Shown: positions 6,957-45,962 of the stretch, piece after piece
Layout of the letters: every line of letters begins with the position of its first letter
Position numbering within the stretch: position 1 is the stretch's first letter
Source: Bacteroidia bacterium
GTDB taxonomy: Bacteria > Bacteroidota > Bacteroidia > Flavobacteriales > Flavobacteriaceae
Assembly (NCBI GenBank): GCA_030427735.1
Contig: JAUIBP010000001.1
Span: forward strand, 186,001 to 250,000
Length of the DNA: 64,000 nucleotides
Reading direction: 5' to 3'
Notes under the pieces: generated by a model
The model's input: only the letters and a program-made list of their open reading frames with translations
Told to the model about the DNA's origin: nothing
The model's database searches: none
Program-made: the position numbers and the translations under genes

Positions 6957-6965
6957 AATAATGTT

Positions 6966-7100: not shown

Positions 7101-7141
7101 TTTAAAAATCGCAACAAAACAAGAAACTTCTAATCCAAAAA

Positions 7142-7846: not shown

Positions 7847-7848
7847 AA

Positions 7849-8721: not shown

Positions 8722-8726
8722 AAAAA

Positions 8727-9107
8727 TTGCTACTTTTAGCTAAACCAAAGTTAGCAAAACCACATAATTTGGAATTAACGCAAAGACATATAAAAAAAAT
8801 AAAATGGACAACTCGAATGGCGTTTACAAGTTTAGGAATTTTGATTTTTGCTCTTTTGGTAAATGAATTGAGAGAACCATTACTCGGAATAAAAAAGGGT
8901 TACGCACCACATAGCTTCGGATTTAATTTTATGTTTTTTCTTCCTTCTATGTTAATAGCCATAGGGTTTGGATTTGCAGTAATTGGACGAACTATCAAAC
9001 ATTGGAAAACCTGGACTGACTTAAACAGGAAATTAATGCTAATTGGGTTATCAATTCCAGCTATCGGAATTTGGACTTTTATCATTATTAAAATATTTGT
9101 TTACTAA
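8727..9107 (+). CDS. Small integral membrane protein, unknown function
   Basis: Up to 126 residues if translation starts at TTG 8727; the first in-frame ATG is at 8817 (97 residues). Three hydrophobic segments are visible: TSLGILIFALLVNE, FLPSMLIAIGFGFAVIG and LMLIGLSIPAIGIWTFIII. I do not recognise a family. The gene starts just after the cassette-end repeat and may be the tail of the accessory region. It converges on the GH127 gene, with a shared terminator between them. The start is uncertain. Confidence 0.5.
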   Translation: MLLLAKPKLAKPHNLELTQRHIKKIKWTTRMAFTSLGILIFALLVNELREPLLGIKKGYAPHSFGFNFMFFLPSMLIAIGFGFAVIGRTIKHWKTWTDLNRKLMLIGLSIPAIGIWTFIIIKIFVY

Positions 9108-9136: not shown

Positions 9137-11152
9137 CTAATACGGCATCCAAACGGTCATTTCCTCCACATTTCTATTTCCCCAACTATAATATGGAATA
9201 AGCGTAATATCGATTGATTTTTTAGATAAATTTAATGGCTTATATAGCGCTTTATCCCAATCTTGGTTTTCAATAAATCCACGAGCTGTAATCCCTAAAA
9301 CTGCTCTGTTTTTAATAGTCATAGGTTTCGTTTTGAAGTTTGAATCGATATCTAAAACCACTTGATTGATGTTTACTTTTTGAGATAAATCATCAGTTTC
9401 TAAACAATACACTAGTGGTCCGCGCTTTACAGCCACTTGACTTTTGGTTTCCTCCACCAAGGGGTTAGCTTGCATTAAACGCACTGGCATTGGAATATGA
9501 AGTTCTATAACATCGCCTTTTTTCCATTTCCTATTTAATTCAGCATAACTTCCTGATTGAATTTCATGATCTAGAGTAGCATTATTTATTTTGATTGAAC
9601 TGCCTTCACTCCACCCCGGAATTCTTGTAAAAATTGAAAATGCTTTTTTCGGTGCCTTTACTATTTTAAGCGTGATTTTTCCGTCCCAAGGATAGTTTGT
9701 TGTTTGTTCTATTTCTAATATCTCACCCGATAAGGTTTCCGTTTTTAAATGATTACTTCCATAAAGATTAACATATAACCCATTTTCTGAAACATTATAA
9801 GCGTAATTATTCACCTGAGCTAAAGTTCTTGTAACATTGGGTGCGCAACAGTTAGACCATGCAATATAACCTTCGCGTTCGTGCCCCCAGCGCTGTTTAA
9901 ACGGTAAATCTTTTGAAACGTTTAACGGATTATTATAACAAAATTCGGTGCCTTCTAAACTTACCCCAGACAAGACACTGTTGTAAAATGCCAACTCCAT
10001 AACATCGGTGTATTTGGCATCGCCTGTAAGTTGCAACATGCGCCAGTTCCACAATACATTGCCAATATTAGCACAGGTTTCGGTGTGTGCCGTGGCGTTT
10101 GGCAATTGAAACGGACGCCCATAAGCCTGATGTATTTTTTGAACTATAGATGGATCGTAAACCGTGCCATCTGGAGAAACGCCATCATAAAGTGCGCCAC
10201 AACCTCCAGTGATGTACATTTTTCGGTATGCCACATCTTCCCAGATAGATTGTAAATTTTCCATCAATTTTTCTTCACCGGTTTCAGCATACAAATCGGC
10301 TATACCAGCGTACAAATAATTGGCTCTTACCGCATGCCCCATGGCTTCGGTTTGTTCACTAAACGGAATGCGGTCTTGGTTATCGTCGGTACCATCGTCT
10401 GTGGTACCACGAATATCAATCAGATTGTTGGCTAATTCTAAATATCGCGGATCTTTAACCGTACGATACATTTCTACAATGCCCATATAATGTGACGGAC
10501 AAATAGCATTTCTGGCCAATTCAGGTGAAGCTTTTTTATAAAAATCATATAAGAAATCGGCAACACCCTCTGCTACTTCCAAGAAATTGGTTTTTCCCGT
10601 TGCGCGATAATGCACACAAGCCGCCGTCATTAAATGTCCCATATTGTACTTCTCGAAGCCTAATTGTTTTTGCAATTCTTCTGGCCCTAAGGTTCCCCAA
10701 CGTTCTTCTATCAAAACAGGCGTATTAATGTAACCATCTTTACGCTGCACTTGCGCAAACATAGCAATAGCTTCGTCCATTTGTTTATCCAATTCCGGAT
10801 CTTTATTGATGGCATAGGCCGAAGCCATACCTTCCATAATTTTATAGAAATCGCCATCGTGGAACGATGGTCCGGCGTGTTTGCCTTTTTCCAAACCTGC
10901 GGCTATTTTAAAATTCGCATAAGCATGACTCACGCTATCGTTATGATACAGCTCCCACATGTACGGCAAGGTGTTTTGGGTTTCTACATCAAACTGTTCT
11001 TTCCAAAAACCATCGGTCCAAACCACTTCCTGAAGTCCAAGACTTTTTAATTTGGCGTGCGGACTATCGGAATTCGCCGTTAGACCTTTGTTTTGGGCAA
11101 ATGCCACAAGGCCAAAGAAGCTAAACATTGAAATTAGAATCTTGTTTTTCAT
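9137..11152 (-). CDS. GH127 family glycoside hydrolase (beta-L-arabinofuranosidase-type), secreted
   Basis: 671 residues with a signal peptide (MKNKILISMFSFFGLVAFAQ). The body is an (alpha/alpha)6 barrel of the former DUF1680 type. The zinc/cysteine active site of GH127 is visible: TAHTETCANIG gives Glu358 and Cys360, and WSNCCAPNV gives Cys435 and Cys436, with the second of the pair as likely nucleophile. Characterised GH127 enzymes release beta-L-arabinofuranose; one in the Bacteroides rhamnogalacturonan-II system acts on aceric acid, so the exact sugar is open. It is the last gene of the minus-strand cluster, separated from the PL1-like gene by a palindromic repeat. Confidence 0.9.
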   Translation of the reverse strand: MKNKILISMFSFFGLVAFAQNKGLTANSDSPHAKLKSLGLQEVVWTDGFWKEQFDVETQNTLPYMWELYHNDSVSHAYANFKIAAGLEKGKHAGPSFHDGDFYKIMEGMASAYAINKDPELDKQMDEAIAMFAQVQRKDGYINTPVLIEERWGTLGPEELQKQLGFEKYNMGHLMTAACVHYRATGKTNFLEVAEGVADFLYDFYKKASPELARNAICPSHYMGIVEMYRTVKDPRYLELANNLIDIRGTTDDGTDDNQDRIPFSEQTEAMGHAVRANYLYAGIADLYAETGEEKLMENLQSIWEDVAYRKMYITGGCGALYDGVSPDGTVYDPSIVQKIHQAYGRPFQLPNATAHTETCANIGNVLWNWRMLQLTGDAKYTDVMELAFYNSVLSGVSLEGTEFCYNNPLNVSKDLPFKQRWGHEREGYIAWSNCCAPNVTRTLAQVNNYAYNVSENGLYVNLYGSNHLKTETLSGEILEIEQTTNYPWDGKITLKIVKAPKKAFSIFTRIPGWSEGSSIKINNATLDHEIQSGSYAELNRKWKKGDVIELHIPMPVRLMQANPLVEETKSQVAVKRGPLVYCLETDDLSQKVNINQVVLDIDSNFKTKPMTIKNRAVLGITARGFIENQDWDKALYKPLNLSKKSIDITLIPYYSWGNRNVEEMTVWMPY

Positions 11153-11312: not shown

Positions 11313-13769
11313 CTATTTAATAAATAAATTTACACGTCTTGTCATCTCATCACCATCAGCATCTTTTACAGCTATTTTGAAAGATGCAAAACCTTTTGAC
11401 GAAGCTTTAAATTCTAGTGTATTATCATTTAGTTGAACGTTTCCATTGTCTACATTGGAAACGCTGTACACAGGTTCATTTTCATAACCTTTAAAAAAGT
11501 CTGAAATAGTCAACTTCAAGTTTTCGCTTTCTTCGATAAAATAATGCGGTTGAGCCATCCAATGTAAATAATCTTCCAATTGGGTAAATCCATCTTTATC
11601 ATCATCATTATTTGACTCTGAAAAATCGCCTACTTCTGAATTGATATTAAATCCTTTGGCTTCTTCCCACCAGTTTGGTAAACCATCGTGATCGGTATCC
11701 CAATCTTTTGGTCTACTTTCACTAGCAAACTCTGGAAAACCACCAGCATCCAATTCGGTATCTATCATTCCTGGCAAACCAGATTTACTTCCTCTAAATG
11801 TATACGTTCCTTTTAAGGTTTCGTTAATAATACGTTGATCGTGATAATCAAAATAAGGTTGACTTGCACCTACATCTGACAAGACATTTTTATACGCTGC
11901 TTTAGCCGATTGGGTGTTTACATACGATGGAAAAAAAGGCTCATCAACAAAGGTTTCATAATCTACAATTTCATTGTTGGTAATTTTTGAAATTCGTCCT
12001 TTCTCTTGATTGTTTTCATCAAAATGACCTGGCATCACATTTCCGTTGAAATAGTAACGCTGACTTCCTTTACCAACACCTTCATGCTGTGCTTTTAAGG
12101 CATAAAACACTTTAGATGATTTTCCTGGTTTGTAATAATTGTTTACAAAATTCACCTCGTGTGCTCCACCATCGGTAACACGTTTTCCCCAGTTATAAAC
12201 AACATTATTTCTAATATCTACACGTCCTGAATAATAACCATCACCATTCAGTCCACCACCAATACTCCAATTACGTCCGTAATTATGAGCTAACAAATTA
12301 TGATGAAAACTCCCAATATCGCCTCCTATTGTAGCCGCATAACCGTGCATTTTACCTGCTTCGTATTTATCGTGACCAGCCACATTTAAAGCTTCTGAAA
12401 TTAGAGTACGTTGCAAAGTAATATGATGTGCTCCTCGTGAACTAAACGATTCATCAATCGTCCAACTAATCGAACAATGGTCGATAATACTATAATCGGC
12501 ACCGGTTAAACCCATACCATCATAAGTAGTTCCTGAACCAATACGTACCTTTAAAAAACGAACCATCCCGTCATCGCCAGTTAATCCTACAGGAGCACGA
12601 CTAATAGTAATCCCTTCTCCAGGAGCCGTTTGTCCTGCCACCGTAATATAAGGATGCCCAATAACCAATCTCGATTTTAATTCAATATTTCCAGAAACAT
12701 TAAACACTACGGTTCTTGGTCCAATATCTTTGGTCACGGCTTCACGGAAACTTCCTGGTCCATCATCATTTAAATTGGTAACTTCAACCACTTTTCCGCC
12801 ACGACCACCAATAGCGAAACGTCCGTAACCTTCAGCTCCTGGAAATGCTAATTGTGCTGGTTTGAACGACCATACATTTCCTTGAGTTATTTTTCCATTC
12901 GCATCCTCAGCATCCACACGCCAGTAATACGTGTTCATGCTGTACAAATCGTTTACTGAAAATTGTTTTTCTGTTTGTTTTCCTTGATAGACATCGCTTG
13001 AAACATCAGCATTTTTCACTGTTTCTTTATCCGTTCCAAAATAAACGTGGTATGCAGAAGTGCCTTCTGGCGATTCCCATGTTAAATTCAACCGATTATC
13101 AACCTCAACATGTTCATCTGCTTGCTCTGGAAAAGGAGAGTGTGCTTGTTTTTTTAAATCGGGTGTATCGATTTCAAATCCGTTAATGACAAATTCTGAA
13201 ATATCAAATCCTGATTCTCCTTCAAAACGAAGCACGACATCTTTATTCGCTTCAGCTTTAAACGTTAAATAAGCTGTTGCTGCATCAACTTTTGAAAACG
13301 CTCTGTTACTTTGATTTAAAGTTTGAACCAATTCATCATTCAAATAAATTTTAATCGGAGTCACGGTTCGCCCTCTTAAATTACTGAAAGTATTATGAAA
13401 GGTTTGTAATGAATGCTCTCCCACTTTCAGTCCGCTAATGGTAAACTCTACAGGTGTTTTACTCACCAAACCATCGCTCACCAATTGTGCATAATGTGGA
13501 GCACTCATCCCGATTTTTACCCAACTGGAATTTAAATTTCCTTTTAGTTTTATAGAAATACCATCAAACGTGTTTTCTGCTTCTTCACTTTCGTTAATCA
13601 CCCACGGTTGATACAATGGATCGTGAACTTCGGATAAACGTCTTCCAGCAAAATCAAAATCGACTTTTACGGTTTGCTTTTCTGCTTTTTTGGTGCTTTG
13701 ACATTGCACATTTACTAGTGCTGCTGTTGATAAAAATAAACAGCTTAAGGTGTGCTTAATTCGTCTCAT
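11313..13769 (-). CDS. PL1-family (pectate lyase-like) polysaccharide lyase with N-terminal accessory domains
   Basis: 818 residues with a signal peptide ending near VNVQCQS, which could also be lipidated. Residues ~30-200 look like a carbohydrate-binding beta-sandwich and ~210-305 like a fibronectin-III domain (TYYWRVDAED). The catalytic right-handed beta-helix starts around FPGAEGYGRFAIGGRGG and continues through VTNLNDDGPGSFREAV, VAGQTAPGEGITI and DHCSISWTIDE, typical of PL1. Calcium-binding-like loops follow (DTDHDGLPNW, DDDKDGFTQL). Family knowledge: PL1 enzymes cleave galacturonan by beta-elimination. No unsaturated-uronyl hydrolase (GH88/GH105) is present to process products. The first 14 bases overlap the end of the DUF5703 gene, suggesting translational coupling. 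Confidence 0.82.
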   Translation of the reverse strand: MRRIKHTLSCLFLSTAALVNVQCQSTKKAEKQTVKVDFDFAGRRLSEVHDPLYQPWVINESEEAENTFDGISIKLKGNLNSSWVKIGMSAPHYAQLVSDGLVSKTPVEFTISGLKVGEHSLQTFHNTFSNLRGRTVTPIKIYLNDELVQTLNQSNRAFSKVDAATAYLTFKAEANKDVVLRFEGESGFDISEFVINGFEIDTPDLKKQAHSPFPEQADEHVEVDNRLNLTWESPEGTSAYHVYFGTDKETVKNADVSSDVYQGKQTEKQFSVNDLYSMNTYYWRVDAEDANGKITQGNVWSFKPAQLAFPGAEGYGRFAIGGRGGKVVEVTNLNDDGPGSFREAVTKDIGPRTVVFNVSGNIELKSRLVIGHPYITVAGQTAPGEGITISRAPVGLTGDDGMVRFLKVRIGSGTTYDGMGLTGADYSIIDHCSISWTIDESFSSRGAHHITLQRTLISEALNVAGHDKYEAGKMHGYAATIGGDIGSFHHNLLAHNYGRNWSIGGGLNGDGYYSGRVDIRNNVVYNWGKRVTDGGAHEVNFVNNYYKPGKSSKVFYALKAQHEGVGKGSQRYYFNGNVMPGHFDENNQEKGRISKITNNEIVDYETFVDEPFFPSYVNTQSAKAAYKNVLSDVGASQPYFDYHDQRIINETLKGTYTFRGSKSGLPGMIDTELDAGGFPEFASESRPKDWDTDHDGLPNWWEEAKGFNINSEVGDFSESNNDDDKDGFTQLEDYLHWMAQPHYFIEESENLKLTISDFFKGYENEPVYSVSNVDNGNVQLNDNTLEFKASSKGFASFKIAVKDADGDEMTRRVNLFIK

Positions 13770-16222: not shown

Positions 16223-17653
16223 CTACCAATCATCCGTTCTAAACGATGACATTGGCAAACCACCTGTGCTAAAAATTTCAGCTTTTACAAAATCTTTAAA
16301 TAAATAACGAACGGCAACTGGTTTCTCCACTTGGGGAGCAGAAAGCACTACTGATTTTCTTCGTAACTGAACCTGTGCCGGATAAAACACTTTGTTTTCT
16401 CCCGCAATTTCAAAACCAGTCACTTCTTTATCGTAAGCTGTAATACCGTTAGGTACATTGTTAAACGATACCGTAACCGTGCTTCCTTTTATTTCCATGG
16501 CGTTAAATTCTGGACTTTCGTATTCAAAACCTTCAAATCCATAAGTTTTTACCAAAGCTTGATACGCTAAACGTTCACCTCCTTTTTGCTTATCGGCAGG
16601 ATGAATATTTCCAAATTCACCCACATCCAACAACACCGCCATTCCTGAATTTTCAATAGTTTTTGAAGCTTTTAATTGTGCCTCTCTTAAATAAGCTGAA
16701 TTGTATGCTTCTTTATTATCGTTCGGATGAAAACGTGCATAATCAAACGGGGCAATTTGAGCAAAGTAAAACGGGAAATCACCTTGATTCCATAATGTTC
16801 GCCACGAAGTCACCATTTTTTTGAATAAGTCTTTATACTGAAACGGACGTTCGTAATTAGATTCTCCTTGGTACCAAATAGCACCTTTGATTCCGTAACC
16901 AATGACAGGCGATAACATACCGTTGAATAAGGTTGTCGGCACTCGGTTTGGATTGCTTTTTAAATCGGATTCTTTTTTTGGTAATTCCAAAGCCAAATCA
17001 AAATCTTTCAACATTTCTTCATTCATCCAAGCCTCCACATTAGAACCTCCATACGACACGTGAATTAAACCTACAGGTACTTGTAACACCTCTTGCAATA
17101 ACGAACCAAAATACCAAGCCGTCGCACTAAAATTACCCGTCGTTTTTGGCGATGCTACTTCCCATTGTCCTTCAAAATCACTTTTCGGCTCTAACACCGT
17201 AGTTCTTGGAACAGTAATAAAATGAATGTTTTTATTTTGTGAACGCACTATCGCTTCGTTACCTCCTTTTACGGGTTGACCAGGAAAGCCCTTTAAAGGC
17301 ATTTCCATATTGGACTGACCAGAACACAACCAAACTTCACCTATCAACACATTATTTATTGTTTTAATTTCAGTTCCATTAGAAACCATAATCATATAAG
17401 GCCCTCCTGATTTTGGGGTTTGTATGTTGGTTTTCCACTGTCCCTGTTTATCGGTTTTCACCTCATAACTTTTAGCATCCCATGATGTAGAAATAGTGAT
17501 GACTTCATTTTTTTCTGCCCATCCCCAAATAGGCGTTTCCATGTTTTGTTGCAACAACATATTGTCGCTAAACAAAGCTGGTAATTTAATTTCGGCATGT
17601 AAACTCAATATACTAAAGGCACATACTATAACTAATGCTATTCTATTTTTCAT
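16223..17653 (-). CDS. SASA-family carbohydrate O-acetylesterase (sialate O-acetylesterase-like)
   Basis: 476 residues with a signal peptide (VCAFSILSLHA). An immunoglobulin-like N-terminal segment (PIWGWAEKNE) is followed by the SGNH-type esterase fold. The nucleophile is Ser114 in WLCSGQSNMEMPL, the oxyanion region is IWYQGESNYERP (~260), and the catalytic Asp/His lie in LLDVGEFGNIHPADKQ (~342-356). Family knowledge: these enzymes remove O-acetyl groups from sugars, including acetylated pectic oligosaccharides. Beside GH106, GH127 and PL1 genes, rhamnogalacturonan deacetylation is more likely than a role in sialic acid use. Its start overlaps the GH106 end by 11 bases. Confidence 0.88.
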   Translation of the reverse strand: MKNRIALVIVCAFSILSLHAEIKLPALFSDNMLLQQNMETPIWGWAEKNEVITISTSWDAKSYEVKTDKQGQWKTNIQTPKSGGPYMIMVSNGTEIKTINNVLIGEVWLCSGQSNMEMPLKGFPGQPVKGGNEAIVRSQNKNIHFITVPRTTVLEPKSDFEGQWEVASPKTTGNFSATAWYFGSLLQEVLQVPVGLIHVSYGGSNVEAWMNEEMLKDFDLALELPKKESDLKSNPNRVPTTLFNGMLSPVIGYGIKGAIWYQGESNYERPFQYKDLFKKMVTSWRTLWNQGDFPFYFAQIAPFDYARFHPNDNKEAYNSAYLREAQLKASKTIENSGMAVLLDVGEFGNIHPADKQKGGERLAYQALVKTYGFEGFEYESPEFNAMEIKGSTVTVSFNNVPNGITAYDKEVTGFEIAGENKVFYPAQVQLRRKSVVLSAPQVEKPVAVRYLFKDFVKAEIFSTGGLPMSSFRTDDW

Positions 17654-20600
17654 TCGTCTTCTTTTTAATTTGAATACTTCCTAAAAGTCCAGATTTTACC
17701 ATCATACTGTCGTCCAGTCTAAACGGAGCGGTTGTCCAAGTCAATCGTTGGTCTTTAGGTAATTTTTCATCACCTATCAAGCGATTTGCCCAAGTGTTCG
17801 TGACTTTTATCTCTATATTGTTTTCCCCTTGTTTTATCGCTTCGGAAATGTTTACATGATACGGATACGTCCAAACCACACCACAATTTTTTCCGTTTAC
17901 CATCACTTCTGCGATACAATTCACTTCCTCAAAATCGAGATATAAATTGTTGGTTTTATCTGAATTCCATTCTATTATTTTGGAATAACTCACTGTTCCA
18001 GAATAGTATTTTATACTATCATTTTCTGAAGTCGTCCAATCAAAAAGTGTATTGATTTCCATTGCTTTTGAAGGGCCGTGAAATTCAGGATCAAACTGAA
18101 GTATCCAATTTTCATCCAATACTTTTTCCGTTTTATAAGATGACCAGTTGATGTTTCCTGTTGATGATTTTTTATCTGTTTTATCTTTAAAAATGATGAA
18201 ATAAGCCTCGTTTGGTAAAAACTGTAACGGAATAATGGTTCGTCCGTTTTCTATTTTCCAATTTTCTAAAATCGTAGTTTCATTTGAAATAGGATGATAC
18301 AACACAGGTTGTTTTCCTTCAACTCTAAACGATATTTCCAATGTTCGTTTCTCCTCTTTTTGATTGGATAAAAAGTAAATACCTTCACCGGAAGATTCAC
18401 GTTGAGTCCAAGCTATAGCTTCATCAACCAACACATTTGGTTCTAAACCTAAGTCTGAAAAACTCGCTCCTAAATAAGGTAATTGAATCACTTTTCCTTT
18501 GCCCAACATCCATTGCTTTTTATTTGTTTCAGACCATAATTCATCAACCAACTGTTTCCATTTGAATTTATCTGTTTTTAAATTGGCCATATCGGTTGGT
18601 TTTTCACCCACAAAAATGGTAGCACCAGTTTTTACCAAATCCACCATTTTTTCGGCCACTTCCAAGGATAAAATATTGGTTGGCATCATTTTTCTAGCAT
18701 CTGGAAACACCAAAAAATTGTAAGCTAACGCATCCTTAAACACCACTTTTCCGTCTTTTACTTCGGCATTCAATAGTACATCGCTGTTAAACGAATCGTA
18801 TTTATAGCCATTTAAAGCGTTTACCCATTGTGATAAATCGGTGCTGTTTTTAGTGTATTTTACTTCCTTTGGCATTCTTGCCGATGGTTGTCCTTCATTC
18901 GCTAATCGAACTTTTTCTGAAGCGATACGCTCTGCTCCAAAAACATTCGGCATAAAAGGTACTAACCGATCTGGCAACACCGAACGCGATGGAATTTCCT
19001 CGCCTGTAAATACTGCGAAATCTATCACCGGTTTTCCTTTTTGTAATTGAAACTGAACGTTTTTACAATACTCAAAAAATGCACTTCCAGGTTTCCACCA
19101 AGTTTGGTCACGTTGAAAAAACGTCCCAATCGGGTCTAAGGTCATCCCTGGTTTTCTATCCAACCACGGATTGTGCATAAACACATGATAGAAAAAGCGG
19201 TTAATTCCCAAGGCATAGTTTCTATCGGCCATGGTTTTTAAATTCCCTGGATGCTCGTCCCAATCCATTCTAAGTTGCGTAAATGCTTCGGCTTGAATAA
19301 TATCACGACCATAAATATGTCCGCCATTAATGGCATCTAACATGTCGTTGGGTTTATCGTGCGTAGGACTTCTAAACCAAAATTCACCACTCGGATAATC
19401 AACATATTTAAAATGCAACAAACCATCGCTCGTCATGGTTGGAGCTACATTTTCGGTGCTGAATTTCACCCCTGTTCTTATTGCTTCTTCTTTTAAGGTC
19501 CCAAAGAAATTTTCAGCTGTTAATTCGGTAATGGTTTTACGAATATCGTATAAAATTTGTTCTGATTTTTCAGCAGAATCCAACGGAATCCCAGCCATTA
19601 CAGGCAGATAGTCCACAATATCGTAACCGTGTTTTTCTTTAAAAGCTTCTCGAAAAACGGGCGACCAATTTTGGCTTCCACATTCCCAACTGTCCATGTG
19701 TAAAATCTCCACCACTTTACTCGCCAAATCTTCTCCTGCCACACGTCGCATTTCACCGTACCAATGGTCTAACTGAAAACGTACTGCCTCGGCATTAAAT
19801 TTATCAACTTCCAAACCTCGACCGCCACCTGCTGTAGCATTTTCGTGACCTGTAGAGGTGTGACCAAAACGCATTATTCGCCAATTACCTTCTGGAGCTT
19901 CCCAGTTTAAAACACCGTTTTCATCAACAAATTGAGAAACATTCACCATTTGTTCAGTATTTACACAATCAGAATTTGGAATTTGTTCTGCATTATTTCT
20001 TGAACTAATTCTCCAAACAGCACCTGATTTTCCTTGATAATTATCGATTAAAGGCTCTTCAGAAAGGATGATTTTAGTAACTTTTAAATAAGAATTCCAT
20101 TTTGCCATATCCAAATCTTCGGCTCCCGGTTCCGAACCTTCAGGATTGTAAACAAATCGGAAATATTTTGCTTTCGCGGAAAGACTGTGCGTATAAAAAG
20201 CATCGGTATCTTGCCAACCCGAACGCGGGGTTTCTAATCGTCCTAAACTTTTAAAGTTTTTACCATCATCACTCACTTCAATTAATAAACGGTGAGCTTG
20301 ATAATTATTTCCTTGAGTTTCAATTTGAATGGATTTACAATCAAAAACTTCACTAAATTCATACTGAATATAACCTGCTTCTCGCATTCTGAATTGTGTG
20401 CTTTCTGTAGAATCATCCTTTAAAAAATCAGCATTTTCAAGGTTTGAAGTAGTCACTTTTAACTGCACTTCTACTGAAGTTTTAAACGCTTTTTCGACAG
20501 GAATTGCAAAAGTTGCAATGTCCTTATAATAATCTTTATAATGCTTTGGAACTGGTAATTTTAAGTTTTTTAAAGCAGAGGCATTCACTACAGTATCTGT

Positions 20601-21022
20601 CCAAACTACTTTTTGCATGGACATTTCTGGAGTAATCCATGGTCCGCCAGCTACTGCAAAACCATCCGCAGGATGAAACGCTATTTTTACACCCAATCGG
20701 TCGGCTTCCTGCAATGCCCAACGCACCAGCTCCCAGAATTCTTTACTTAATTGAATCACTGGCGGATTCATTAAAGGTTCGTCTCCCGGTCCTTTTATGG
20801 TCATTAAATACGCACCACGAATGCCAGCTTGTTTCATAGCTTCCAAATCGGCTGTAATCCCTTCTTTAGAGTAGGCACTTTTCATCCAATACCAATACAC
20901 CCATGGTTTTGCTGAATCTTCGGTCGGTTGAAAAAAAGTTGCTGATTCTTGCGATTTTTCTTTACATGATAAAACTGCAAAAAACACCAAAAGAATAGCG
21001 ATATGCTTGAACTTAAAACGCA

Positions 21023-21023
<1 letters not shown>
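17643..21023 (-). CDS. GH106 alpha-L-rhamnosidase, lipoprotein
   Basis: 1126 residues. The N-terminus ends in a lipobox (FFAVLSCKEKS), so it is probably membrane-anchored. The GH106 signature follows directly: AKPWVYWYWMKSAYSKEGIT, then AMKQAGIRGAYLM and FHPADGFAVAGGPWITP. A large beta-domain insertion (~150-350) comes before the rest of the barrel (HMDSWECGSQNWSPVF), and a C-terminal jelly-roll contains VMVNGKNCGVVWTYPY. Family knowledge: GH106 removes alpha-L-rhamnose from rhamnogalacturonans and related glycans. The start overlaps the preceding GH2 stop by one base (TAATG), and the end overlaps the esterase start by 11 bases, so three genes are tightly coupled. Confidence 0.92.
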
Positions 21024-32367: not shown

Positions 32368-33249
32368 TTAAAGATTTTCAAATTCTCTTTTAGCAGCTTC
32401 CCAACAATCTTGTATAATATCTTTGTATAACAAAGCCTGCTGCCAACGGTCGCCTTCTTCCTGAGCTTTACTGGTTTCGTTAAAAAACGTTCTTTCATAA
32501 AAGATTTCAGCCTTCAACAATTCTATAGTAAAACAGATATAATCTCCAGGAATGGCCGATTTTAAAAATCCGATAAACGAGCGTTTCCACATTTCTTTAA
32601 AATGCTGTACATAACTTTCGTTTGCATCTTTAACATTTACCTGAATAGATCCTGGATTACCTATTCTACCATGCATAAAACGTACACGATCGAACACAGG
32701 CTGAATAAAATCCCATTTGTTTTCTATGCCGCCATATACCATTTCCTGACCCGTGTACCAATGCGAAAAATCGCCGTTAAAACGCACTTCTGGAAAACGT
32801 TTGGTTAGCTCAACGGTTCGGAACATGTCCTGAGTAATGGTCGCGCGATGGGTTTCGATGTAAATAGGAAAATCGTATGTTTTAGAGGTATTTAAAACGT
32901 AACTTACCAATTGATCTACTTCTGCATCCGATTCCATTCCCCACCCTAAATGAATACTCGCACAGTTATAATTTCCGTTTTTCCAGATGGGCATCAATGG
33001 ATCTAAATCGCCAACCTTATTAATTCTGGCATGTGCTGTCAATTCTAAACCTAATGCCTTGCATAATTCGGGATTTCCATCCTGAATACCCTGAAAACCG
33101 GCCTGCGCTATAGCGTCATGTTTTACTTTATCGCTACCTGTTGGCCCTTCCGAAAAAGACGGCAAATCATCGCAGGTATTGTAATTTATATCTATACGCA
33201 AACTGGGCGCATTACTACTGCCATTGTTGGTATTTTTTATCATGTTCAA
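32368..33249 (-). CDS. Sugar isomerase/epimerase-like TIM-barrel protein
   Basis: 293 residues of the xylose-isomerase-like TIM barrel superfamily. Likely metal ligands are Glu132 in YIETHRA, Asp160 in NGDFSHW, His193 in MHGRIG and the Glu in FTIELLKAE. No signal peptide. Its start is 3 bases after the SSS symporter stop, so the two are co-translated and probably act on the same sugar. Family members isomerise or epimerise ketoses and sugar acids or cleave modified sugars, so the reaction cannot be fixed from sequence. Confidence 0.75.
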   Translation of the reverse strand: MNMIKNTNNGSSNAPSLRIDINYNTCDDLPSFSEGPTGSDKVKHDAIAQAGFQGIQDGNPELCKALGLELTAHARINKVGDLDPLMPIWKNGNYNCASIHLGWGMESDAEVDQLVSYVLNTSKTYDFPIYIETHRATITQDMFRTVELTKRFPEVRFNGDFSHWYTGQEMVYGGIENKWDFIQPVFDRVRFMHGRIGNPGSIQVNVKDANESYVQHFKEMWKRSFIGFLKSAIPGDYICFTIELLKAEIFYERTFFNETSKAQEEGDRWQQALLYKDIIQDCWEAAKREFENL

Positions 33250-33252
33250 AAA

Positions 33253-34842
33253 TTAATGTCCGTTAAAAACTATATATAAAATAATCATAGTAACAATTAG
33301 TGCTCCCCAAAGTAATTTCACCTTAGGAGTTGCTTTAATTGGTACATAACTTAATGTATTTGTGTTGGTATTTTTATTCTTATCTAATAAAGAAATAAAC
33401 ACGATTACAAAAGATAAAAACACAAATATGTAAAAGGATAACAATAAAAAGTGAGGCCAAAATTTATCGGTTGCATTAGGTGCATCTGGAAATACCCATA
33501 AATACAAAACACCAATGGAAAGACTTAATAAGGTACCGAATATTAAAATGAAATTGGCTGCCTTTGTTGTCGTTTTTTTCCAAAGTACACCAAATAAAAA
33601 CACCACAGACATAGGTGGTGCTATAAAACCAAGAACCGATTGAAAAACATCGAATAAATTTAATCCTTTAATACTATTAATGGCTAATGTTATAAAAATA
33701 GACAAGATAGCACCTACAACGGTAACCATATGCCCTACCTGAACAATTCGTTTTTGCCCTGCAGTAGGTTTAATTTTTTTCACATAAATATCCATAGTAA
33801 ACACAGTGCCAAGAGCATTTAAAGCCGAATCGATGGTACTAACTAAAGCAGCAATTAAAACAGCCATAACCAAACCTCGCATTCCCGTAGGGAATAATTC
33901 TGTAACCATAGTCATGTAAGCTTCATCGGGATTGTTTAAATCTGGAAACAACACAAAGCACATAATTCCTGGTAGAATAAACAGCGGTAAATCTATAATC
34001 TTTAACCACGCCGTAAAGTTTGCGCCTAACTGCCCCTGTTCTATACTTTTAGAGCCTAAAACCGATTGCACCATAGACTGGTCTGTACACCAAAACCAAA
34101 CGCCCATAATTGGGTAACCCAGCACAATTGCTGTCCATGGGTAACTACTATCGTCGGCTGGTAAAAACAAATTCCAATAGTTAGAAGGTGTATTACTAAC
34201 CAAACCGTCTACCCCACCTACACGATCTAACCCAACCCACATTAAGGCAAAGGAAACTATTATAAGGAGTACCATTTGAATAACATTGGTATAGGCTATC
34301 GTTTTAAGTCCGCCAGCCATAGTAAAAAAACCAGCAATGACTAATAATAAAACCACCGAAGACCACATGGGCAAGTTTAAAATTTGCTGAATTAATACAC
34401 CTCCAGCAAACAACGTTAAGGACAACCAACTTATTAAAACCGTAACTATGGTATACCAAGCCAAGATGTTTTGAGTAGAATCGCCAAAACGCTTACCCAT
34501 AAATTCTGGTAAGGTTTGTACTTTGGCACCAAGATAACGCGGTGCAAAAACTATGGCCAATAAAAAAATAAAAACAAAGGCATACCACGAAAAGTTACCA
34601 GCTACAATACCTGTTGTATAACCTATACTAGCCGAAGCTATTAACATAGAGGGGCCTACATTTGTGCCCCACATGTTAAAACCAATACTGGTCCAATTTA
34701 AAGAGTTACCTGCTAAAAAATAATTTTCATCGCTTGGTCGTTTAGAACTAAAACTTATCCAAGCTCCAATTGCTATTAATCCTAAAAGATAAATGCCTAC
34801 AATAGCAAAATCTAGTAGTTCTAGTTGCTCGTATATATTCAT
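33253..34842 (-). CDS. Sodium:solute symporter (SSS family), sugar-type
   Basis: 529 residues with about 14 hydrophobic segments. SSS-family features are ENYFLAGNSLNWTSIGFNMWGTN split across the first loops, the GGLKTIAYTNVIQ segment, and the sodium-site region ALVSTIDSALNALGTVF. Bacterial sugar-type SSS proteins import galactose, sialic acid, uronates or similar compounds using sodium. The gene sits between a PhyH oxygenase and a TIM-barrel isomerase with very short gaps, which suggests transport and conversion of one unusual monosaccharide. Confidence 0.88.
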   Translation of the reverse strand: MNIYEQLELLDFAIVGIYLLGLIAIGAWISFSSKRPSDENYFLAGNSLNWTSIGFNMWGTNVGPSMLIASASIGYTTGIVAGNFSWYAFVFIFLLAIVFAPRYLGAKVQTLPEFMGKRFGDSTQNILAWYTIVTVLISWLSLTLFAGGVLIQQILNLPMWSSVVLLLVIAGFFTMAGGLKTIAYTNVIQMVLLIIVSFALMWVGLDRVGGVDGLVSNTPSNYWNLFLPADDSSYPWTAIVLGYPIMGVWFWCTDQSMVQSVLGSKSIEQGQLGANFTAWLKIIDLPLFILPGIMCFVLFPDLNNPDEAYMTMVTELFPTGMRGLVMAVLIAALVSTIDSALNALGTVFTMDIYVKKIKPTAGQKRIVQVGHMVTVVGAILSIFITLAINSIKGLNLFDVFQSVLGFIAPPMSVVFLFGVLWKKTTTKAANFILIFGTLLSLSIGVLYLWVFPDAPNATDKFWPHFLLLSFYIFVFLSFVIVFISLLDKNKNTNTNTLSYVPIKATPKVKLLWGALIVTMIILYIVFNGH

Positions 34843-34916: not shown

Positions 34917-35675
34917 TTAAACCACGTTATGTGCACTTACATTTTCTCCATTCTCTATAAATGGTTCTGCCCAATATAGTGGTTTTTTACCATCCTTTAA
35001 AATAGGTTCTGCAGAATACTGAATTAATAATACACGTCTGGATTTATTTGTTTTGTTAGAACCACTTCTATGGAAACACGTGCTTGAAAACAACGCCACA
35101 TCGCCAGCATTTAACACCGCTGGAATACCTGGGTTATCTCCAAAATATCCTATTTTATCGTTAGTACCTTCTTGTAGAGTGTGGTCTATTCTAGCTGTGG
35201 TACCAGCATCTTTGTACGGTAACATATAAACGGTTCCGTTTTCCTCGGTCACATCGTCTAATGGTAGCCAAATAGACAAGTATGGTTTATGGTCGAAATC
35301 TAAATACCCAGAGTCTTGATGCCAAGAGAATGTCATGCCCTTATCGGCTGCTTTTACTACAAATTGTTCTAAAAACAAGTATACGTTTTCTCCTAAAATC
35401 TTACGCGTAATTTCTTCTAATTCCTTACCAAAAATCAGGTCTTTCATGGTCTCGCTATCCTTATAACGCAGGGCTATAAAGTAACGTTTTCCTTTATGGT
35501 TAATTTCGTCTACCTCAACACCTTTACGATCCATTTCCTCGTCTTTTTCTTTTATAAATCGCTGACATTCGTCTTGTAAACGTTTTATCATTTCTGGAGA
35601 AATCACGTCTTTTACTAAACAGAATCCTTCTTCTTGGAACTGTTTTAATTTGTCGTTACTTAATATTGTACTCAT
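34917..35675 (-). CDS. Phytanoyl-CoA dioxygenase (PhyH) family Fe(II)/2-oxoglutarate oxygenase
   Basis: 252 residues, no signal peptide. The iron facial triad is visible: His119 and Asp121 in FSWHQDSGYLDF, and His202 in TCFHRSGSN. An arginine a few residues later (NKSRRVLLIQY) would bind 2-oxoglutarate. The hydroxylase core includes LSIWLPLDDVTEENGTVYML. It is unusual in a glycan cluster. Placed between GH31 and a symporter, it could oxidatively remove an O-methyl group from a methylated sugar, or oxidise another small substrate; this is inference. It starts 24 bases after the GH31 stop. Confidence 0.85.
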   Translation of the reverse strand: MSTILSNDKLKQFQEEGFCLVKDVISPEMIKRLQDECQRFIKEKDEEMDRKGVEVDEINHKGKRYFIALRYKDSETMKDLIFGKELEEITRKILGENVYLFLEQFVVKAADKGMTFSWHQDSGYLDFDHKPYLSIWLPLDDVTEENGTVYMLPYKDAGTTARIDHTLQEGTNDKIGYFGDNPGIPAVLNAGDVALFSSTCFHRSGSNKTNKSRRVLLIQYSAEPILKDGKKPLYWAEPFIENGENVSAHNVV

Positions 35676-35699
35676 AACATTTGGTATTAGTTTTATTGG

Positions 35700-37964
35700 T
35701 TACATTGTATTGATAAGAGTCCAAATACCTTTAAACCCTGTATCTATTTTTATTGTTTTTGTTTTATTGAAATCCATTTCGTCTGTACAATTTACCGACT
35801 CCAAATACATCGGAATTTCGGTATTCGCCTTTACCCAAACAGGCATGTCGCTTAAATTTGATTTAAACGATTTAAGCCATTTTTGACCTTCCATACGTTC
35901 CCCGGTAAAGAAATTCACCCAATTTCCCTCGGGTAAATACACTTGTCTTGTGTTTTCTGAATTCATAATTGGAGCCACCAAAAAATCGTCTCCAAAATAA
36001 TACTGGTCGTCAATGTGCCAACACATGCTGTCTTCTGGATGGTGCATAAGCAGGGCGCGTAGTACAGGGTATCCTGTTGTTGTGGTTAACTTGCTTTGTT
36101 CCCAAATATAAGGTAACAAGGCGTAGCGTAATTTCCACCAAGACCTTACTATATCAGCAATTTCTGGATAATAATAAGGTTCCCGTTTAGACGTTCCATG
36201 ATAGCGAATATGCGAAGTAAACACTCCAAATTGAGTCCAACGCACATACAAATCGTCTGGAATTACGGCATTCATAAAATCAGGAACACCATGAAAACCA
36301 GGTACGTCGTGACTCCAAAACCCAAATCCAGATAATCCTAAATGCAGACCTCCTTTTAAAGAGCCAGCCATACCATCCCAAGATGCTGCTGCATCTCCAC
36401 CCCAGTGAATAGGGTATCTTTGGCAACCAGCCCAACCTGCTCTTGCCCATACTAGCCCGTCGCCAGTCACTTCTTTAGTAACTTCGAAAGCTGCTTTTTG
36501 ATATAGTAAAGCATATAAGTTATTGAGCTTTTCTGGCGACATGTTATGGTAAACGGCATCCATATGTATTTCTTCACCAAAATCGGTTTTTATAGCCGCA
36601 ACCCCCATATCTAAAAGATTCCGAAGTAAATCTTTATACCAATTAACCGCTTTAGGGTAGGTAAAATCTATAGTTCCTGCATAATCTAACGTACTAAAAT
36701 TAGAACCATCTTGTTCTTTTTTAGTCTTAACAGTACACATGTAATGTTGTTGCTTCGCTTCAGTATATTGCTCGGCATCTTCGGCAATATATGGCAATTG
36801 CCACAGACTAATACGATAGCCTTTTTCCTTTAAATTGCTAATGAATTGTTTCGGATTTGGAAAGCGTTCTGGATTAAATTTCCATTCGCATAACCAATCG
36901 GTTTCGAACCAGCCCGTATCTAAATGAATAACATCGCAAGGGTAATCTTCTAACCGCAATCGGTAACAAATCTCGTTAACCTCATCTGCCGAGAAATAGG
37001 TCATTCTACTCATCCAAACACCAAAACTCCATAATGGCGGCACTTCTGGAAACCCTGTAAGTTGTTTATAATTATAAATAATGCGTTCGGGTGTCTCCCC
37101 TGCCATTAAAAACAAATCTAACACAGGCTCTTCGGTTAATATTTGTACCGATCGTGTAGAAAAATCTGTAAGCGATAATTTACTGTAGGCCGAGGTATGC
37201 ATAAATAAACCGTAACCTTCGCTAGACAAATAAAATGGGATATTTTTATAGGTTCTTTTATTATTTACACCCTGTCCATCCTGATTTTTAAGTTGAAACG
37301 TATGCCCCGATAAATCCATTTTAGAAAAGCGTTCGCCAGTGCCTACAAACTTTTCGTCTGGTTTTGCGGCAAAGGACATGGTACTTTTATCTGGAATGCC
37401 GTTTTTTGTAATAAACGCCAAAGACATGGCATCCATACGTCTTGGAAAAAACTGATCGTGTCCACTTACTTGTATTGACGTAACACCATCGGGATATAAT
37501 ACGGCTTCGAAAGATTCTTGTGGCGCAGGCAATAAATCGCTCCAATAATCAATTTTTGGAGTCGATAAATCTATTTTAGCCTTAATAACGCCTGTGGTAT
37601 CTTCTATAATCCAATGATTTTCGAAAACCGTAAATTGTAATGCAGTTTCGGTTACCTCGTCGGCCATTTGTAACATTTCGGAATCGTCTTCCACAGTGCC
37701 ATCAAAAGCGATGCTTAAACGTAAAATAGATGAACCATAAGCGCGAATTATAACCTGATATGATTTACGCGCGATTGTTTCGTCTGGAACAATTTCGTTA
37801 GATACTTGCTGTGCCTGAAAGGGTACTGTTAACATAACGCCCAAACCATTTTGGGATATTGCAGTAGGTTTACAGGATTTCCAAAGTTTTGAAACACCAA
37901 CTTCTTGGGATAAGTCGGTATCAAAATCTAGAAAATCGAAAAATTGATGGTTGGTTTGTTTCAT
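35700..37964 (-). CDS. GH31 glycoside hydrolase, cytoplasmic (alpha-xylosidase YicI-like)
   Basis: 754 residues without a signal peptide. The N-terminal beta-sandwich (EKFVGTGERFSKMDLSG) is followed by the GH31 barrel: nucleophile Asp461 in AAIKTDFGEEIHMD and acid/base Asp524 in YPIHWGGDAAASWDGM. The KTDFGE form is that of YicI-like alpha-xylosidases rather than typical alpha-glucosidases (WxDMNE). It would release xylose or a related alpha-linked sugar from imported oligosaccharides. It differs from the lipoprotein GH31 in the xylose operon (46168) in both compartment and motif. Confidence 0.88.
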   Translation of the reverse strand: MKQTNHQFFDFLDFDTDLSQEVGVSKLWKSCKPTAISQNGLGVMLTVPFQAQQVSNEIVPDETIARKSYQVIIRAYGSSILRLSIAFDGTVEDDSEMLQMADEVTETALQFTVFENHWIIEDTTGVIKAKIDLSTPKIDYWSDLLPAPQESFEAVLYPDGVTSIQVSGHDQFFPRRMDAMSLAFITKNGIPDKSTMSFAAKPDEKFVGTGERFSKMDLSGHTFQLKNQDGQGVNNKRTYKNIPFYLSSEGYGLFMHTSAYSKLSLTDFSTRSVQILTEEPVLDLFLMAGETPERIIYNYKQLTGFPEVPPLWSFGVWMSRMTYFSADEVNEICYRLRLEDYPCDVIHLDTGWFETDWLCEWKFNPERFPNPKQFISNLKEKGYRISLWQLPYIAEDAEQYTEAKQQHYMCTVKTKKEQDGSNFSTLDYAGTIDFTYPKAVNWYKDLLRNLLDMGVAAIKTDFGEEIHMDAVYHNMSPEKLNNLYALLYQKAAFEVTKEVTGDGLVWARAGWAGCQRYPIHWGGDAAASWDGMAGSLKGGLHLGLSGFGFWSHDVPGFHGVPDFMNAVIPDDLYVRWTQFGVFTSHIRYHGTSKREPYYYPEIADIVRSWWKLRYALLPYIWEQSKLTTTTGYPVLRALLMHHPEDSMCWHIDDQYYFGDDFLVAPIMNSENTRQVYLPEGNWVNFFTGERMEGQKWLKSFKSNLSDMPVWVKANTEIPMYLESVNCTDEMDFNKTKTIKIDTGFKGIWTLINTM

Positions 37965-37989: not shown

Positions 37990-40500
37990 CTATTCGTTGC
38001 TCGTTTGGAGCGGTTTTAAAAACACCCACGTTTCTCCTGGTTTTGCGCCTTCAATTCCTGTTTGATACTTTTTCATTAAAGCATTCCACTCCTCGACTTT
38101 AGGATTATTTTCGGTAGTTTTGGGGTTTAGTTCTTCTAGGGTACTTGTTTCAGGAATACTAATTACCAATAGTAATTGCCTGTTATTTTTAAACACTTGC
38201 AGCTGCTGAAAATTAGCATTACAAAACCCTTGGGCAACCTCTGGCCAGTCTTTAAACTGGATGTTGTGGTATTCCAAATATTCGTTTTGCAACTGGGCAT
38301 TATCTACCAAATTTGCCGTTAACAAGACATGTTTCCATTGGGGTGCCAAATTGGTATCTTTACACCTTTCGTATTTGTTAAAATTATATACGGGTACATC
38401 GTAAGCTTTAATTTTAGCAGTAGGATATTCTACCTCTAAACGTTGCTGTAACAAGTCTATATGATTTAGTTTGCCATACAATACCAAATGATTATTCCAT
38501 TGGTACAATTGTGGCGCTATAACCCCATGTTTAGTCGCAATCGATTGAATTTCACTCGCGGAAAAATCAGTCCCAATTAACTCTAAAGCAGCGTAATGTA
38601 GGACTTCCTGTAACGGCCATTCTCTATCGGTTACTACTTCGGTTTTTAAATGTTGATAAGGCTTACGAATACCTGCATTCGCTTTAATGCTATCGGCCAC
38701 ATAGGCGTTATTATTTTGCCATACATTATCTGGGCCATTAGCATTTTGAAGGAATTTTTCTGATGGCACCCAATTGTTTTCGACAGTAAAATACGACGAG
38801 CCTTCGTCTGTATATAAATAAAACCAATGGTACGGATCGTGGGCATACGGATTATAATAAATATCTTCTACAACATTCTCTGTTATCACACTTTTAGGCT
38901 GTGCCGACAAAGTATAAATTGCAGCAACATCGTAAAGATGTTTCCCGTAATGATGGATGTAATTGCCCTTTACCGTATTGTTTTGCATAACATTTACAGT
39001 CTTGGTCCATCCCCAACCCAAACCAATACCTGTATACGAAACCTCCGAAATTTCGTTATGGGCAATAGTAATATCCTTTACAAAGCCTGCACTAATTCCA
39101 ACAGTCCCCCAATCTTCATTGGTTACATCGGTAATTAAATTATCGGTAATGCGCTCGTATTCGCAAATTTCTCTGCTATCTTTAGGATTGTAAGGCAAAT
39201 GTGTTTCGAATGCTTCGTCTGAAAACACACCTACATTAATTCCGCTGCCCCCAATATCTTTAAACAGATTACCTGAAACAACATTGTGCTTCGTCCCTCT
39301 ATGTAAGTCTAATCCGGTTGAAGATAAATGTGTAAACTCGCAACCTTCAACTAACAAATTATGAGCGTAATTTATTTCCATGGCAGCTCTTGGTCTACCA
39401 ATCCACCCCTGATTTTCTAAACCAGCCTTATCGGGCGTACCTGGAACTTTCAACTTATAGGCATCCAATAAATACATTCCTGCTTGCAACGGCACGTGAC
39501 CTTGTTCTGAAGGGCGCAGCCAATTACTATGTTGAAATGAAATACCTTTAAAATGTACATGTTCTACCAGGTTATCTATGGTTCCTTTAACCGTTACCAA
39601 ATTTTCTAGTACAGGTACTACTACCTCTAAATTATTAAGCTGTTCGCCTTTTCGTGGGTAATAATACAGTTTTGCATTTGCCTTGTCTAAATACCATTCG
39701 CCCGGCTCGTCTAAGAATGCTAAAGCATTATTTAGATAGAATGGTGAGTTTCCAGTGGTTTTGGATATCCAAGGAGCTGGCCAAGGGTGTTCGCTTTGTA
39801 TTTTGCTTTCTGGTTGTAAGAACGATAATTTAGCACTATCGCCTTTTACTTCAATATCCGAAATACGTAAGTTGGCTATTGCCCACCACTGCTGAATACA
39901 CATTTCCATGCCTGCCTCATAGGCTAACGATTTATTTTCTAATGGAATCCAACAGGTTTCTGACGCTTTATCCCAAGACAAAATACGATTCATTTTACTT
40001 CCTGTAGTCGATTTTGCTCGTGTTGCTTTTACACCATTAACCCACAATTGTCTGTAATTTAACAATGTTCCTGCTTGTTTTGGGGCATCGGCCACCCAAA
40101 CAGTCCCCGATTTTAACCCGTTTACAGAGCCCGCTTTTTTCCAATTAGGCACACGCATCCCACCACTAATTATGGGTTTAGAATCCTTATAGGCTTCAAT
40201 TATTGTTGGGCTTGTTGCTGTACCAGAATCTTCTGGACGGATAAATATTGGTGTATTTAAAAAATAAGTCCCTTCTAATAAAATGATTCGAATACCATTT
40301 GCTATTCCAGAATCTTTTAATCGGCGTAATTCTCGGGCTTTTCTCAAGGCCATATTTAAAGTAGCCAAAGGCGCCACTTTTGTACCTTCGTGAGTATCGT
40401 TTCCGTTAATACTTACCCAAATTTCTGTAGCGCAAGCATTATAAACTACCCCTAAAAGTAATACTATACTAAAACAAAAAGCTCTTGTAAGCTTTATCAT
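37990..40500 (-). CDS. GH141-like parallel beta-helix hydrolase fused to an L-rhamnose mutarotase-type domain
   Basis: 836 residues with a signal peptide. The N-terminal start of the beta-helix (WVSINGNDTHEGTKVAPL, then IILLEGTYFLNTPIFI) and the central helix (EINYAHNLLVEGCEFTHL, HRGTKHNVVSGNLFKDIGGS, ENVVEDIYYNPYAHDPYHWF) resemble the GH141/right-handed beta-helix group. Residues ~723-836 match the RhaM/L-fucose mutarotase family: NEYLEYHN, then WPEVAQG, NPKVEEWNALMKKYQ and GAKPGETWVFLKPL. A weaker related half (WNNHLVLYGKLNHIDLLQQR) precedes it at ~660-715. Family knowledge: GH141 includes an alpha-L-fucosidase of the rhamnogalacturonan-II system, and RhaM interconverts sugar anomers. It is the first gene of the cluster. 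The substrate is unproven. Confidence 0.75.
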   Translation of the reverse strand: MIKLTRAFCFSIVLLLGVVYNACATEIWVSINGNDTHEGTKVAPLATLNMALRKARELRRLKDSGIANGIRIILLEGTYFLNTPIFIRPEDSGTATSPTIIEAYKDSKPIISGGMRVPNWKKAGSVNGLKSGTVWVADAPKQAGTLLNYRQLWVNGVKATRAKSTTGSKMNRILSWDKASETCWIPLENKSLAYEAGMEMCIQQWWAIANLRISDIEVKGDSAKLSFLQPESKIQSEHPWPAPWISKTTGNSPFYLNNALAFLDEPGEWYLDKANAKLYYYPRKGEQLNNLEVVVPVLENLVTVKGTIDNLVEHVHFKGISFQHSNWLRPSEQGHVPLQAGMYLLDAYKLKVPGTPDKAGLENQGWIGRPRAAMEINYAHNLLVEGCEFTHLSSTGLDLHRGTKHNVVSGNLFKDIGGSGINVGVFSDEAFETHLPYNPKDSREICEYERITDNLITDVTNEDWGTVGISAGFVKDITIAHNEISEVSYTGIGLGWGWTKTVNVMQNNTVKGNYIHHYGKHLYDVAAIYTLSAQPKSVITENVVEDIYYNPYAHDPYHWFYLYTDEGSSYFTVENNWVPSEKFLQNANGPDNVWQNNNAYVADSIKANAGIRKPYQHLKTEVVTDREWPLQEVLHYAALELIGTDFSASEIQSIATKHGVIAPQLYQWNNHLVLYGKLNHIDLLQQRLEVEYPTAKIKAYDVPVYNFNKYERCKDTNLAPQWKHVLLTANLVDNAQLQNEYLEYHNIQFKDWPEVAQGFCNANFQQLQVFKNNRQLLLVISIPETSTLEELNPKTTENNPKVEEWNALMKKYQTGIEGAKPGETWVFLKPLQTSNE

Positions 40501-43682: not shown

Positions 43683-45962
<2,280 letters not shown>

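Follow-up and report, generated by a model that had tools for sequence, protein, structure and literature searches.

What does a mutarotase-type domain do at the end of an exported glycoside hydrolase? The question is raised by an 836-residue protein encoded on the reverse strand of a 64,000-nucleotide stretch of a Flavobacteriaceae genome (assembly GCA_030427735.1, contig JAUIBP010000001.1, positions 186,001 to 250,000; hereafter the window), in which an earlier note on the same DNA had seen a deoxyhexose mutarotase-type domain attached to a secreted GH141-like enzyme. We found that the protein does join a RhaM-superfamily domain to a complete GH141 enzyme with an export signal, as proposed. 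We give about an even chance to the reading in which the tail of this protein is an exported, catalytically competent FucM-type mutarotase that supplies an anomer to the sodium/solute symporter (SSF family) of its gene cluster during the use of rhamnogalacturonan-II (RG-II).

The enzyme part is a member of GH141 by three signs: the GH141_M insertion domain (PF21231, E=1.4e-68), a full-length match of residues 22-619 to the founding member BT_1002 (PDB 5mqp_A, E=1.1e-208), and the catalytic Asp pair. The pairing of Asp524 and Asp565 with D523 and D564 of BT1002 assumes that residue numbers in the solved chain run five ahead of those in the papers, an offset inferred from the alignment. Both columns are invariant across 15 aligned sequences (D500 and D541 of sequence A1), and both BT1002 residues are reported as essential (PMC12786026 and PMC10154630). 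Because the solved BT_1002 chain ends at residue 624, the 217-residue tail (620-836) follows an enzyme that is already complete. Hydrophobic N-termini were also present in the relatives of the fusion protein that were printed. An AlphaFold model of the full-length protein (predicted local distance difference test, pLDDT, 68.6) was too poor to read the domain arrangement.

The C-terminal half of the tail matches the rhaM family of Pfam (PF05336) over residues 735-828 with E=4.1e-11 and 43.5 bits against a curated cut-off of 23.4, which bears out the mutarotase pattern claimed for residues 723-836 (37993-38334), whose quoted motifs are all present. Taken alone, this half scored E=2.9e-12; the match recurred in 15 of 15 aligned fusion homologues, and a profile-profile comparison with 17 standalone relatives gave a probability of 99.5 (E=3e-22), while PDB sequence searches with the fused C-half returned no match at E 1. 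A chance motif or frame artefact is ruled out by the Pfam score, by the presence of the fusion in 80/80 loci and by the ratio of nonsynonymous to synonymous divergence (dN/dS; both below). When modeled from 15 tail sequences with AlphaFold, the tail formed two ferredoxin-like halves (mean pLDDT 84.3, predicted template-modelling score 0.81), in agreement with the pair that had been suspected. The second, weaker half-domain claimed earlier thus stands as a predicted fold but not as sequence: the N-half had no rhaM match in Pfam, and its profile matched neither the C-half nor the standalones significantly (hhalign probability 4.7 and 0.3), values that rule out a sequence-recognisable second RhaM copy. 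A Foldseek search with the tail model ranked two-half proteins first (WhiE-ORFI, 3fj2 and HmoB), which we take as fold neighbours, and placed the L-fucose mutarotase 7byu at rank 19 (E=1.8e-3, TM-score 0.76 by target length, 15% identity). In the model, the tail looks like a fused pseudo-dimer, in which a tandem would take the place of the family's dimer. Such one-chain pairs also occur outside the GH141 fusion: standalone tandem FucM-like proteins of 211-236 residues exist in three other genomes, beside FucP; an NCBIfam scan of one of them gave no match.

To which mutarotases the C-half is closest was read from an alignment of 15 fused C-halves, 47 FucM-like standalones, three exported lipoproteins, seven further rows, 7byu and 12 RhaM-type rows, with four rows outside the named groups (loci L145, L157, L166 and L175) kept out of the 47. 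The catalytic His/Tyr/Trp positions that the earlier note had singled out for a check are conserved: Tyr741, His745, Trp752 and Trp805 are kept in 15/15 fusions, as are Gln813 and Trp825, and all six occur in at least 95% of 98 fusion sequences. Tyr741 and His745 correspond to Tyr18 and His22 of Escherichia coli RhaM, which we take to be active-site residues, His22 presumably being the catalytic one; the Trp752-Pro753-Glu754 motif is likewise kept in 15/15. Gln813 and Trp825 occur in FucM-like rows and in 7byu, not in RhaM-type rows. His745 and Trp752 are separated by six residues; RhaM has three at this place, and the FucM-like sequences printed have three or five. Both this longer loop and the loss of the Gly otherwise found at position 763 would be compatible with a pocket that has changed, or with one that has been lost.

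The final tree contained 14 fusion loci plus the window, with duplicates L183 and L184 and long rows L179 and L170 left out; its bootstrap had not fully settled, and the named clades were already present in an earlier tree that included those four rows. Here, the 15 fused C-halves formed one clade (100/99), sister to the three lipoprotein relatives (100/100), and the RhaM-type rows plus 7byu split from the remaining sequences at 99/100. Because 7byu groups with RhaM, the FucM-like label rests on operon context, on the best PDB match of one FucM-like standalone (7byu at 6.2e-10 versus 1x8d at 1.5e-4) and on shared residues. As to operon context, a FucM-like standalone follows FucP (499 bits, over the cut-off) in the L194 cluster, where short-chain dehydrogenases are present and where an L-fuconolactonase-type gene (292 bits, under a 400-bit cut-off) and an FAH-type, didehydrodeoxyrhamnonate-hydrolase-type gene both scored below their cut-offs. 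In the window genome, a single operon carries FucP and, one gene away from it, an L-fuconolactonase-like gene that scored 295 bits, below the cut-off; no FucM was found in that operon, where in L194 it follows FucP, and no L-fucose isomerase match in the genome. An L-rhamnose mutarotase proper is ruled out by the different clade, the different residues and the lack of any match of the window protein to TIGR02625, the RhaM/YiiL equivalog of NCBIfam, at E 0.1. Hence, on sequence grounds, the fused domain is a member of the RhaM superfamily, as the mutarotase label implied, but of a FucM-like rather than the RhaM subgroup. The view that members of the family are normally separate cytoplasmic proteins needs amending too, given that three standalones sister to the fused domain carry lipoprotein-type signals (by eye); PF05336 proteins should not all be taken for cytoplasmic L-rhamnose mutarotases.

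How widely the fusion occurs was surveyed in other genomes, as had been suggested. A contig scan with the tail as query, which favours close relatives, gave 93 relatives, of which 80 were kept, and 80/80 kept loci were GH141 fusions. The fusion is present in 5/248 genomes of the same family and 15/395 of the phylum (the window's own genome counted in both), with Flavobacterium, Aestuariibaculum, Wenyingzhuangia, Tamlana, Mariniflexile and Pelobium among the named carriers. One Flavobacterium carrier is F. johnsoniae CI04 (locus L132). A GH141 match at 1e-40 was found in 22/395 phylum genomes: 15 with the tail, three tailless orthologues (51-53% identity) and four distant. Other matches in the family and phylum searches were frames of less than 250 residues or matches that read through the stop codon bordering a longer adjacent frame, and no fusion of the domain to another enzyme was seen in these 248 and 395 genomes. 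The window genome (99.94% complete) has two PF05336 matches, one RhaM-type gene and the fusion. Mean identity to the window protein across 97 partly redundant homologues was 0.67 in the GH141 part, 0.43 in the N-half and 0.69 in the C-half. For the same three parts, the median of dN over gene-wide dS was 0.045, 0.026 and 0.045 in 39 close pairs (most of the 25 pairs printed are from Flavobacterium). The C-half is no decaying remnant: it is under the same constraint as the GH141 enzyme. Decay of the N-half among close relatives is ruled out by its median of 0.026, although this half differs between lineages.

The fusion is also paired with a transporter. An SSF symporter like the window's lay inside the retrieved flank of 78/80 fusion loci, the other two being on contigs that end there, and at 4/4 more distant fusions; of the tailless GH141 orthologues, 0/3 had a mutarotase domain or such an SSF within ~8 kb. 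The exported lipoproteins have an SSF directly upstream in 3/3, with symporters 40-48% identical to the window's. By comparison, the 47 other FucM-like standalones, none with a lipoprotein-type signal that we could see, have within the 1.5 kb inspected FucP in 25 cases, a distant SSF (28% identity) in one and neither in 21. The ratio of FucP to SSF, 25:1 for the standalones versus 0:3 for the lipoproteins, gave a Fisher p=0.001, with shared ancestry uncorrected. FucP further stands beside 3/3 tandems and 1/4 of the rows outside the named groups, and FucP or SSF beside 0/10 RhaM-type loci. Two more searches with a lipoprotein query (397 and 395 genomes, overlapping) returned, at 44% identity or more, only the three known proteins; the other matches were at 39% or less. 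The candidate rule that we offer is that mutarotase location depends on transporter type.

The surrounding cluster (GH31, PhyH, SSF, MFS, GH78-like, two GH2, GH130-like, GH106, esterase, DUF5703 and GH127) is most likely an RG-II cluster, because its GH106 and GH127 proteins have 5mqm and 5mqo as best matches; we take these to be an RG-II rhamnosidase and an RG-II enzyme of Bacteroides thetaiotaomicron, both deposited with 5mqp. A Pfam scan of 26 window proteins showed no SusC/SusD pair. The GH31 plus PhyH variant (34917-37964) occurs in the window and in 4/80 fusion loci (L061, L065, L078 and L098), and the PhyH protein, a 2-oxoglutarate-Fe(II) dioxygenase, is a candidate sugar O-demethylase beside a GH141 enzyme whose homologue releases a 2-O-methylated xylose-fucose disaccharide. 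At L060 and L074 the order is instead fusion, Gfo/Idh/MocA oxidoreductase, SSF and GH78-like (Pfam on L060 only), and the spacing of the SSF suggests a Gfo/Idh/MocA gene between fusion and SSF in most other loci too. Two further genes may be recorded here. An 818-residue protein within the RG-II-like cluster (11313-13769, minus strand) has no Pfam family at E 0.001 and is possibly a new enzyme, and near the cluster a catalase-peroxidase (peroxidase domain; 43683-45950, minus strand) has a lipoprotein-type N-terminus, SISAC, by eye and is possibly exported.

If the tail is indeed a mutarotase serving the symporter, it would be a one-chain pseudo-dimer, with an intact active site in the C-half and the N-half as a diverged scaffold, tethered to a periplasmic GH141 enzyme cutting at L-fucose in side chain A of RG-II. 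The tail would interconvert the alpha and beta forms of free L-fucose, or of the reducing-end fucose of the disaccharide 2-O-Me-Xyl-alpha1,3-Fuc (Me, methyl; Xyl, xylose; Fuc, fucose), and the anomer preferred by the Na+ symporter would be supplied without a wait for spontaneous mutarotation. Sialic acid offers the precedent: a periplasmic mutarotase is thought to feed transporters, and the beta anomer is the form bound by SiaT, which is an SSF symporter (PMC3658417 and PMC5931594). The fusion, the kept active-site-type residues, the subgroup, the conservation and the SSF pairing were computed and the export signal was assigned by eye; we infer the mutarotase activity, its sugar substrate and the symporter's preference for one anomer.

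A number of observations weigh against this reading. Position 763 is Gly in 47/47 FucM-like, 3/3 lipoprotein and 12/12 RhaM-type rows, and Asn/Asp or other in the fusions; the fusions further have Asn730 where 46/47 FucM-like rows have Asp, Gly758 where 45/47 have Ser, Asn806 where 47/47 have Glu, and mostly Thr824 where 46/47 have Lys, such that the near-invariant FucM-like set of Asp730, Ser758, Gly763, Glu806 and Lys824 is not kept (7byu, with His at 763, Trp at 806 and His at 824, departs from it as well). On the tree, 7byu, the only L-fucose mutarotase with a solved structure, groups with RhaM, albeit as a 96-residue fragment on a very long branch (3.5 changes per column). The pairing with SSF is an association seen inside a single clade, so its cases are not independent events, and the 21 FucM-like standalones with neither transporter fall outside any such pairing. 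The gain itself may be small, as loss of nanM costs at most 20% of the E. coli growth rate (PMC3658417). Lastly, the reported product of the characterised GH141 homologue BT1002 is 2-O-Me-Xyl-alpha1,3-Fuc, a disaccharide, and not free fucose (PMC10154630), which makes the earlier idea of an enzyme that releases a deoxyhexose and converts it in place too simple: either other enzymes free L-fucose, or the domain acts on the reducing end of the disaccharide. A fuller version of the latter, possible but unlikely in our view, has the fused domain flip the fucose of the disaccharide, followed by import through the SSF, cleavage by GH31 inside the cell and then removal of the methyl by PhyH, where space for the extra sugar would come from the longer loop and the missing Gly763. 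If true, this would be a candidate route for the RG-II disaccharide that B. thetaiotaomicron is reported to accumulate (PMC7939467).

The changed residues would also suit a sugar-binding module, the alternative raised in the earlier note, which would have lost catalysis and would keep a product or substrate ending in fucose or rhamnose close to the GH141 site. The tail sits on a secreted hydrolase where carbohydrate-binding modules usually are, and the longer loop after His745, the loss of a near-universal Gly and the change of several FucM-type residues are what such a module could show. Yet Tyr741, His745 and Trp805, invariant in every group, are kept in 15/15 fusions, and the sister proteins are single-domain exported proteins adjoining a transporter gene, and we regard the binding module as improbable. 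A more modest role, in which the tail serves just to stabilise or dimerise the GH141 enzyme, or is removed once the protein has been exported, would agree with the three tailless orthologues and with the poor conservation of the N-half between lineages, but the C-half is as constrained as the catalytic domain, with active-site-type positions among its most conserved, making this role very unlikely.

The tail could also be an active exported mutarotase for another RG-II sugar, namely L-galactose (the end of chain A), L-rhamnose or 2-O-Me-fucose, all of which occur in RG-II (PMC7939467). The Asn806 that the exported members share, in place of the Glu of the FucM-like standalones, would allow for such a shift in specificity. 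Against it, a separate RhaM-type gene is present in the window genome, the RhaM clade does not include the fused domain, and the fusion partner has a fucosidase as its nearest characterised relative; a mutarotase for one of these other sugars is therefore a doubtful proposition. The enolase genes do not discriminate here: the lipoprotein-adjacent one, considered as support for L-galactose, was dropped, as it has the same best NCBIfam match as the enolase of an L-fucose-type cluster.

Table 1. Features of the fusion gene, its neighbours and related loci (positions in the window unless a locus is named; res., residues).
Feature	Position	Strand	Basis or remark
Coding sequence, 836 residues: signal peptide, GH141, two-half FucM-like mutarotase tail	37990..40500	-	ORF list, Pfam, PDB match
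Signal peptide, res. 1-24	40429..40500	-	by eye: Lys/Arg, hydrophobic core, A-C-A before TEIWVS
GH141 beta-helix enzyme, res. 25-619 (GH141_M insertion domain, res. 132-283)	38644..40428	-	5mqp_A, PF21231
Asp524, counterpart of catalytic Asp D523 of BT1002	38929..38931	-	alignment to 5mqp; invariant column
Asp565, counterpart of second catalytic Asp D564 of BT1002	38806..38808	-	alignment to 5mqp; invariant column
Tail N-half, res. 634-718: predicted ferredoxin-like half without family match	38347..38601	-	AlphaFold model
Tail C-half, res. 722-836: FucM-like mutarotase domain	37993..38337	-	Pfam, profile match, alignment, tree
Tyr741 (Tyr18 of E. coli RhaM)	38278..38280	-	invariant in every group aligned
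His745 (His22 of E. coli RhaM)	38266..38268	-	invariant in every group aligned
Gln748-Phe749-Lys750, longer loop after the catalytic-type His	38251..38259	-	alignment
Trp752 of the W-P-E motif	38245..38247	-	15/15 fusions; 43/47 FucM-like
Trp805	38086..38088	-	invariant in all groups aligned
Gln813, FucM-type	38062..38064	-	alignment; Met in 11/12 RhaM-type rows
Trp825 of the PGExW motif, FucM-type	38026..38028	-	gap in 12/12 RhaM-type rows (two are fragments ending earlier)
GH31 alpha-xylosidase/alpha-glucosidase-like enzyme, no signal peptide visible by eye	35700..37964	-	Pfam, NCBIfam
PhyH-type 2-oxoglutarate-Fe(II) dioxygenase	34917..35675	-	Pfam
SSF sodium/solute symporter	33253..34842	-	Pfam, NCBIfam
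293-residue protein, sugar isomerase/epimerase-like by eye	32368..33249	-	no Pfam match over cut-off
GH106, best match 5mqm	17643..21023	-	PDB match
GH127, best match 5mqo	9137..11152	-	PDB match
Gfo/Idh/MocA-type oxidoreductase between fusion and SSF	L060:6648-7730; L074:6777-7841		where the window has GH31 + PhyH
Standalone FucM-like proteins, lipoprotein-type signals by eye	L192:7064-7510; L193:6689-7135; L142:4525-4962		SSF directly upstream
Standalone tandem FucM-like proteins	L141:7900-8532 (-); L143:5685-6392 (-); L144:4909-5568		second half far more recognisable
FucP / L-fuconolactonase-like operon of the window genome	L257 (G000:C6:60000-74000), 5875-8811		

In the open-access papers searched on GH141, RG-II, rhamnose/fucose mutarotases and fucosidases, we found no report of a GH141-mutarotase fusion. 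If the tail does serve the symporter, a hydrolase and a mutarotase on one exported chain beside a sodium symporter would turn anomer supply into a step of polysaccharide feeding on which selection could act. Compared with known systems, the enzyme part corresponds in whole to BT_1002, including both catalytic Asp positions, whereas the solved BT_1002 chain has no mutarotase tail. RhaM/YiiL (1x8d) and RhaU (2qlx) share PF05336 and the Tyr18, His22, Trp-Pro-Glu and Trp positions with the fused domain, but they lack equivalents of Gln813 and Trp825 and form a separate clade. FucM of Acidovorax avenae (7byu/7byw), an L-fucose mutarotase reportedly studied by Watanabe in 2020, has the same fold and the Tyr, His, Trp-Pro, Trp, Gln and PGExW positions in common with the fused domain, yet it is a single domain of 120 residues at 15% identity with Ala for Glu in the W-P-E motif. 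The exported FucM-like lipoproteins resemble the fusions in their export signal (by eye), adjoining SSF and Asn806, and differ in being unfused, having one half only, keeping Gly at 763 and having other gene partners. NanM with the sialate transporters follows the same proposed logic of a mutarotase outside the inner membrane that feeds an anomer-preferring transporter, although it acts on another sugar as a separate protein, with a fold that is presumably unrelated to that of the fused domain.

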